In this document: piece by piece, positions 31,491 through 33,254 of the stretch | How the letters are laid out: each line of letters begins with the position of its first letter | Position numbering within the stretch: the first letter of the stretch is position 1 | Origin: Saprospiraceae bacterium | GTDB taxonomy: Bacteria > Bacteroidota > Bacteroidia > Chitinophagales > Saprospiraceae | Length of the DNA stretch: 64,000 nucleotides | Assembly (NCBI GenBank): GCA_020629515.1 | Contig: JAHDDE010000002.1 | Coordinates: forward strand, 134,010 to 198,009 | Direction: 5' to 3' | Notes under the pieces: generated by a model | Databases searched by the model: none | The model's input: the letters and a program-made list of their open reading frames with translations, nothing else | What the model was told of the DNA's origin: nothing | Translations under genes and position numbers: made by a program

Positions 31491-33254
31491 CTAATCTTGG
31501 TCTGGTTGCAATCGAAGGGTATCAATCAAGTCATCTAACAAAGGATTGATTTTTATCAGGTGATCATATTTTTCCTTTGCAGTATAAAGTTTCTTTTCAA
31601 CTTTGATTTCACTATCTGGGAAAAGCTCCCGATTTACATTGATTTCTATATTCAGATCATTTTGATTAAAATGATCTCTCAGAATTGAGTATAACCCAGT
31701 TTCTTGTTGTATTTCTTCTTTGGCAATAGTAGATGGTACAGATCCAATGATTTTTTTATCCTCTATGGATAGCTTTACATTTTTTAAAATAGATGAAGAG
31801 GTGGGTGATTCTTGTTGGCGAGCATACTCCATCCATATAGTATTGACTTCATCAATATTGAGTTCTTTTTGTGAGTTGGTTTTATTGTTTATTTCTTCTT
31901 GTGCTTGGCTGATGAGCGCATCTATAGAGGAAATATGGGGTGATTCTATTTTAGTGTCTTTTACTGTGATCGATGGTCGATCTATAGATTTTTTGACTTC
32001 CTCTTTTTCTATAGAGATTGGCCCTCCTCGTTCTATCTCATTGGGTTTGTCTTCTGACGGCGCAGATGGAATTGTTGGGGTAGGAGGTATAGGATCAAGA
32101 GAGGTAGAAGTAGGATTAGTTATCTGGGGTTCAGTGTTTTTTTTTTGATCAGATATTGTATGATCTGGTTCTATCTGTCTCGAGGCATAACAAATTTTTA
32201 GAAGTGCTATCTCTATGTGAAGTCTTTTATCTTTAGCTTTAGCATAATTAATGTCGCAATCATTAGACAGGGATAAGGCAGTAAGTATGGTACTATAAGT
32301 GATATGATTAGACTGCTCCATATACTTCTCCTTTAGTGCATCACTGAGCTGCATCAATCTTTGAGTAGGTTCTTGTTTGCAATACATTAGGTTGCGCAAG
32401 TGTTTGGACAATCCATTCATAAACGTGTCACCTTCAAAACCATTGGCAAGTACCTCTTCTAATAGCAACAGGAGGTTAGGCCCATCCTCTCTAAGTAACA
32501 AGTCCGTTGCTCTAAAAAAATAATCATAATCGAGAAGATTTAGATTTTCTATGACAGATTTATAGGTGATACTATTGTTACTTGCGCTTGCTATTCTATC
32601 ATATATAGATAAAGCATCTCTCATCGCCCCATCTGCTTTTTCAGCTATGGTATACAGTGCATCATATTCAGTTGAAGTTCCTTCTTGTAGGGATATTGCT
32701 TCGAGCTGTTTGATGATATCTGGAACCATAATGCGTCTAAAGTCATACAACTGACATCTACTCATTATGGTAGGCAATATTTTATGCTTTTCTGTCGTAG
32801 CCAATATAAATATGGCATAAGGAGGAGGTTCTTCTAATGTCTTGAGAAAAGCATTAAATGCTGAAGTGGTCAACATATGTACCTCATCAATTATAAATAC
32901 CTTGTATTTACCTTGTTGGGGCTGAAATCGCACTTGCTCGATGAGCGATCTCATATGTTCTACAGTATTATTAGATGCCGCATCGAGCTCCACTATATTC
33001 ATGGAGATATCAATCTGCGTATCAGCATAGCTGCCATCTACTATCGCCGCTTTTGGGTCTTTCATATTGATGACCTTAGCCAATAATCTGGCACAGGTTG
33101 TCTTACCTACTCCTCGAGGCCCACAAAACAAAAAAGCATGAGCTAACTTATCTGACAACAGCGCATTTTTGAGTGTAGAAGTGATATGCTCCTGACCCAC
33201 CACATCTTCAAATTTTTGTGGTCTATACTTCCTTGCTGAAACGATGTAACTCAT
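31491..33254 (-). CDS. dnaX: DNA polymerase III subunit gamma/tau
   Basis: MSYIVSARKYRPQKFEDVVGQEHITSTLKNALLSDKLAHAFLFCGPRGVGKTTCARLLAK, VFIIDEVHMLTTSAFNAFLKTLEEPP. Start refined from 33308 to 33254. Confidence 0.96.
   Translation of the reverse strand: MSYIVSARKYRPQKFEDVVGQEHITSTLKNALLSDKLAHAFLFCGPRGVGKTTCARLLAKVINMKDPKAAIVDGSYADTQIDISMNIVELDAASNNTVEHMRSLIEQVRFQPQQGKYKVFIIDEVHMLTTSAFNAFLKTLEEPPPYAIFILATTEKHKILPTIMSRCQLYDFRRIMVPDIIKQLEAISLQEGTSTEYDALYTIAEKADGAMRDALSIYDRIASASNNSITYKSVIENLNLLDYDYFFRATDLLLREDGPNLLLLLEEVLANGFEGDTFMNGLSKHLRNLMYCKQEPTQRLMQLSDALKEKYMEQSNHITYSTILTALSLSNDCDINYAKAKDKRLHIEIALLKICYASRQIEPDHTISDQKKNTEPQITNPTSTSLDPIPPTPTIPSAPSEDKPNEIERGGPISIEKEEVKKSIDRPSITVKDTKIESPHISSIDALISQAQEEINNKTNSQKELNIDEVNTIWMEYARQQESPTSSSILKNVKLSIEDKKIIGSVPSTIAKEEIQQETGLYSILRDHFNQNDLNIEINVNRELFPDSEIKVEKKLYTAKEKYDHLIKINPLLDDLIDTLRLQPDQD

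Follow-up and report, generated by a model that had tools for sequence, protein, structure and literature searches.

Does the dnaX gene of the window, the whole 64-kb stretch of DNA analysed here, encode one product or two? Its sense strand carries ten consecutive A residues near the end of the part that tau and a gamma subunit would share, and sites of this kind are already known from two settings. In Thermus thermophilus, transcriptional slippage in dnaX was measured (Larsen et al., 2000, as related in PMC5009743 and PMC1088944). Antonov et al. (2013; PMC3711429) list two-ORF dnaX genes with poly-A runs, nine of them with ten A, and propose transcriptional realignment. The dnaX of E. coli, as the same article presents it, uses the heptamer A_AAA_AAG, preceded by an element resembling a Shine-Dalgarno sequence and followed by a hairpin. 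The comparisons described below indicate that the A10 run of the window gene is very probably a programmed slippage site, at which RNA polymerase would slip such that a single gene gives rise to tau and to a gamma-like protein.

Results

The dnaX gene and its A10 run

The gene begins with an ATG at 33254 and belongs to a host genome of 3.9 Mb. A similarity search among named genomes places its nearest dnaX relatives in Saprospiraceae-like Bacteroidota. Its parts are listed here with the evidence for each.

31491..33254, minus strand: dnaX, DNA polymerase III subunit gamma/tau, with tau of 587 aa as frame-0 product (ORF, full-length gamma/tau family match)
32733..33197, minus strand: clamp-loader ATPase domain PF13177, residues 20-174 (domain match)
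32598..32717, minus strand: ATPase lid PF22608, residues 180-219 (domain match)
32154..32555, minus strand: domain III PF12169, residues 234-367, with which the gamma-like part ends (domain match)
32137..32146, minus strand: putative slippage run of ten A, beginning at the second base of codon 370 (sequence; A9-A11 kept in 118 of 142 dnaX genes)
32131..32133, minus strand: TGA closing the frame of one added A, 374-aa product (translation)
32120..32122, minus strand: TAA closing the frame of one lost or two added A, 377 aa with one lost A (translation)
31491..32136, minus strand: linker and C-terminal tail found in tau only, read in frame 0 (aligns with the same-genus dnaX through to its end)

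An earlier note on this DNA had read the minus strand as TCT GAT CAA AAA AAA AAC ACT GAA CCC CAG ATA ACT, with the ten A at 32146-32137, and its sequence, coordinates and frames are right. It had also counted the CAA before the run as codon 370 of 587, just past domains I-III, in agreement with a PF12169 match that ends at residue 367. Translation reproduces both short products that it had predicted: one added A leads to a stop after QKKKH (374 aa, 42.5 kDa) and one removed A to a stop after QKKTLNPR (377 aa, 42.9 kDa), compared with a predicted 66.6 kDa for tau.

Under the mechanism that we propose, RNA polymerase, on transcribing the run, would realign the all-A:U hybrid and release dnaX mRNAs with more or fewer A. 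Those with ten A, or with ten plus or minus multiples of three, would be translated into the 587-residue tau. In the remaining mRNAs the TGA or the TAA would follow within a few codons, and the product would be gamma-like, about 374-377 aa long, with its end just past domain III. In Thermus, gamma and tau are made at a ratio of about 1:1, and on that precedent a similar ratio would be expected in the host.

Conservation across Bacteroidota

The relatives comprise 142 dnaX genes from the family, order, class and phylum of the host, together with separate loci from named genomes; in each, the longest stretch of A around the end of domain III was taken as the run. Nine to eleven A occupy the equivalent place in 118 of the 142 genes (A9 in 41, A10 in 66, A11 in 11). 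Neither A8 nor A12 or longer occurs at the site in any of the 142, and the 24 genes without a run have at most A7. By kinship, 33 of the 36 family members carry the run, as do all 28 genes from the order's other families, all 36 sampled from elsewhere in the class and 21 of 42 from elsewhere in the phylum. The one same-genus dnaX found has A11, also with tau in frame. The earlier note had made absence of the run from relatives the test of its reading; the run recurs in the congener and throughout most of the family and order. When the linkers of the two congeners are aligned with MAFFT, their A runs are not placed together, and thus the flanks of the run have diverged.

Among the named loci, which were chosen by similarity and in which Bacteroidales are sampled unevenly, 30 of the 31 in the series L032-L062 have the run. 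It is missing from 46 of the 49 in the series L063-L111, whose titles read Bacteroidales, Prevotella, Muribaculaceae and similar; the three exceptions, L068, L070 and L104, belong to Crocinitomicaceae or Flavobacteriales. All 46 Bacteroidales-type loci have at most A7 at the site. Within the family, the run has been lost (no longer than A6-A7) in a Portibacter-like genus and in one further genome (L033, L148, L149 and L024), and close relatives keep it. These run-less family members offer a natural contrast on whether gamma is still made.

Stops in the other frames and reversed layouts

In the 87 run-bearing genes with tau in frame, both other frames close soon after the run. The added-base frame reaches a stop after a median of 2 codons versus 8 at control positions, which were taken farther along the same linkers (nominal p 2e-27), and the lost-base frame after 5 versus 14 (nominal p 9e-19). 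Both are closed within 12 codons in 83 of the 87 genes and at 30% of control positions. These counts treat related genes as independent, and the p-values are nominal; the effects are large.

The layout is reversed in 31 of the 118 run-bearing genes: frame 0 stops 0-7 codons past the run and the long frame goes on in another register. To enter that register 29 of them need one added base and two (L124 and L179) one lost base. A profile built from in-frame tau tails matches the out-of-frame tails in 30 of the 31. Reversed genes obtain tau only by a change of frame at the run, and the run must therefore be productively slippery in the phylum.

A tree of domains I-III from 157 genes, built with FastTree and with many weak branches, requires the layout to have switched between tau-in-frame and gamma-in-frame at least 15 times; when only branches with good support are counted, the reversed label must still change 8 times or more. 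Repeated switching is to be expected if slippage supplies all frames from either layout. Two close pairs, L172/L183 and L171/L179, have unlike layouts and nearly identical flanks. Both L172 and L183 read GATGGAG and then A10, and a one-base difference in the distance to the conserved ATAATTCC flips the frame of the tau tail.

An assembly error in the homopolymer is unlikely, since the A11 of the congener also leaves tau in frame and whole clades share one layout.

RNA polymerase or ribosome

Several features bear on the level at which the frame would change. The RNA:DNA hybrid of RNA polymerase spans 9-10 bp (PMC5009743), and the observed minimum of nine A lies near that length. Shifts in both directions among orthologues are given in PMC3711429 as a criterion for transcriptional realignment. 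Ribosomes of an E. coli translation system, according to PMC4363877, slide strongly at A11 and little at A9-A10. The earlier note had seen no strong hairpin 3' of the run, and folding concurs: the 70 nt downstream of the A10 reach -1.1 kcal/mol (z -0.13) and hold no stable fold. Transcriptional slippage fits best, given the nine-A threshold, the stops on both sides, the two shift directions, the absent hairpin and the rarity of an in-register AAG.

The frame could instead change on the ribosome, by -1 programmed frameshifting or by sliding on AAA codons, making gamma as in E. coli dnaX; we regard this as unlikely. Every run of nine or more A holds an in-register A_AAA_AAA heptamer, yet that heptamer needs seven A and the observed minimum is nine. 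The -1 frame, which equals the frame of one added base, has the tightest stops, but the stops of the lost-base frame are conserved too, and in two reversed genes the shift must go the other way. Poly-A sliding by ribosomes is described (PMC4363877), and in the part of the tRNA set that was recovered the one tRNA-Lys reads UUU. Against these points stand the lack of a stimulatory hairpin, an E. coli-type in-register A_AAA_AAG in only 12 of the 87 tau-in-frame genes, and a Shine-Dalgarno-like word upstream in only 12 of the 118 run-bearing genes (versus 1 of 118 in a control stretch). Most of these words are GGAG adjoining the run in one flavobacterial-looking group, which is not the E. coli spacing. 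At the window site the frame-0 codons are CAA AAA AAA AAC ACT, with no in-register A_AAA_AAG, and ATACAATATCTGATC contains no Shine-Dalgarno-like word about 10 nt upstream of the A10. Stimulators of the E. coli type are thus absent from the window site and follow no general trend in the relatives. Ribosomal slippage at the same run may nevertheless add to the change of frame.

That the frame would change in the mRNA and not during translation, and that it would do so in this organism, we infer; slippage by the host's RNA polymerase is presumed from that in other bacteria. Two findings weigh against the slippage reading, namely that 24 of the 142 genes and all of the Bacteroidales-type loci lack the run, and that the lost-base direction appears in only 2 of the 31 reversed genes. 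From the former it follows that gamma made by slippage is not required in every lineage. The preference of the earlier note for slippage over hairpin-stimulated ribosomal frameshifting is upheld, by sequence only.

A tract that varies in the DNA itself, with genomic run length differing between cells as in phase variation, is very improbable. Homopolymers mutate readily, and run length and layout do differ among species. However, layout is uniform within clades (nine G10 genes in one clade, for example), run length is confined to 9-11, and tau is expected to be essential, as is established for E. coli.

Conservation and rarity of the DNA run

What is conserved is the DNA run and not a peptide. 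Among the 118 genes the run falls in all three codon phases (61/38/19), and the peptides that it encodes vary, with EKKT, KKKT, VKKK and LKKN all represented. Lysine codons within the runs are AAA in 209 of 209 cases, compared with 2473 of 3692 elsewhere in the same genes. When codons are resampled synonymously, with the protein and the codon usage of each gene held fixed, a run of nine or more A is retained in 30.5% of draws on average. No second such run exists in the 155.5 kb of coding sequence of the 87 tau-in-frame genes. Selection at the protein level for lysines is ruled out by the exclusive use of AAA and the varying codon phase.

The run is also rare in its surroundings. It is the window's sole run of nine or more A, and the whole genome has only four further A10 runs. 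Matches to A9 number 72 genome-wide, in 67 separate runs, versus about 316 expected, a figure obtained by scaling the shuffled expectation of the window (5.18) to the genome; the genome-wide depletion is accordingly an estimate from the window and from pattern counts. Counted by length in the window, A runs become about 0.4 times as frequent with each further base from three to six, and beyond that 0.24, 0.23 and 0.1 times; this faster drop beyond six A indicates that long runs are depleted. Depletion of long A runs has been described for slippage-prone genomes (PMC1088944). A chance origin of the dnaX A10 is ruled out by its conservation, length threshold and rarity.

A run with no role in expression, whether a useful lysine patch or an AT-rich accident, could appeal to the KK always encoded at the run and to the 36% GC of the window, but this reading is already largely refuted and scarcely credible, as AAG occurs in none of the 209 lysine codons, codon phase varies, dnaX genes as GC-rich as 62% still carry the run, the genome is poor in long A runs, and a reversed gene whose run had no function could not make tau.

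Of the other four A10 runs in the genome, one lies well within a gene, one at the extreme 3' end of an ORF and two between genes. The first (L112:1453-1462, equal to C29:32152-32161 in the host's own genome) is in a gene that fuses an ammonium transporter, a histidine kinase and a receiver, where it falls in a stretch coding for RSKKKVL between the transporter and kinase domains. Apart from that in dnaX, it is the only A10 well inside a gene of this genome.

Discussion

The window gene matches T. thermophilus dnaX on all sequence features tested. Both have a sense-strand run of at least nine A, a tau frame that stays open through it and near stops in the other two frames (at 374 and 377 aa here), and in neither is a hairpin needed. 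The Thermus run is A9 and that of the window A10, the phyla are different, and slippage, measured in Thermus, is predicted for the window gene. The two-ORF genes of Antonov et al. likewise have a poly-A run in dnaX, and the 31 reversed relatives share their layout. Unlike them, the window gene encodes tau in one uninterrupted frame, so that slippage would give the short product and not the long one. The reversed relatives were compared with Antonov's nine A10 genes by layout, the species being named only in the supplement of that paper. E. coli dnaX is the same gene, and its gamma ends shortly past domain III, as predicted here; the window site differs from it in having no A_AAA_AAG, no Shine-Dalgarno-like element and no hairpin.

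In the literature searched, we found no description of poly-A dnaX slippage across Bacteroidota. The phylum-wide retention of the run, the repeated switching of layout and the absence from Bacteroidales thus appear to be new in that literature. There is perhaps an even chance that the dnaX slippage site is ancestral in the phylum, that the frame of the tau tail drifts near-neutrally while the run is under selection, and that Bacteroidales, along with several other lineages, lost the site.

If the proposed slippage is true, what is now a single textbook case, that of Thermus, would turn out to be the norm for dnaX in much of a large bacterial phylum. A long A run is costly, and its retention over such distances suggests selection for making both subunits. 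Whether gamma is needed has long been debated, and this retention is relevant to the question, for which the run-less lineages supply a natural contrast. Reversed dnaX genes may stand in annotations as truncated or frameshifted.

Opposite the tau linker, a 142-aa open frame at 31720-32148 on the plus strand takes its last codons from the T10 complement of the run, and it is most likely a mechanical ORF.
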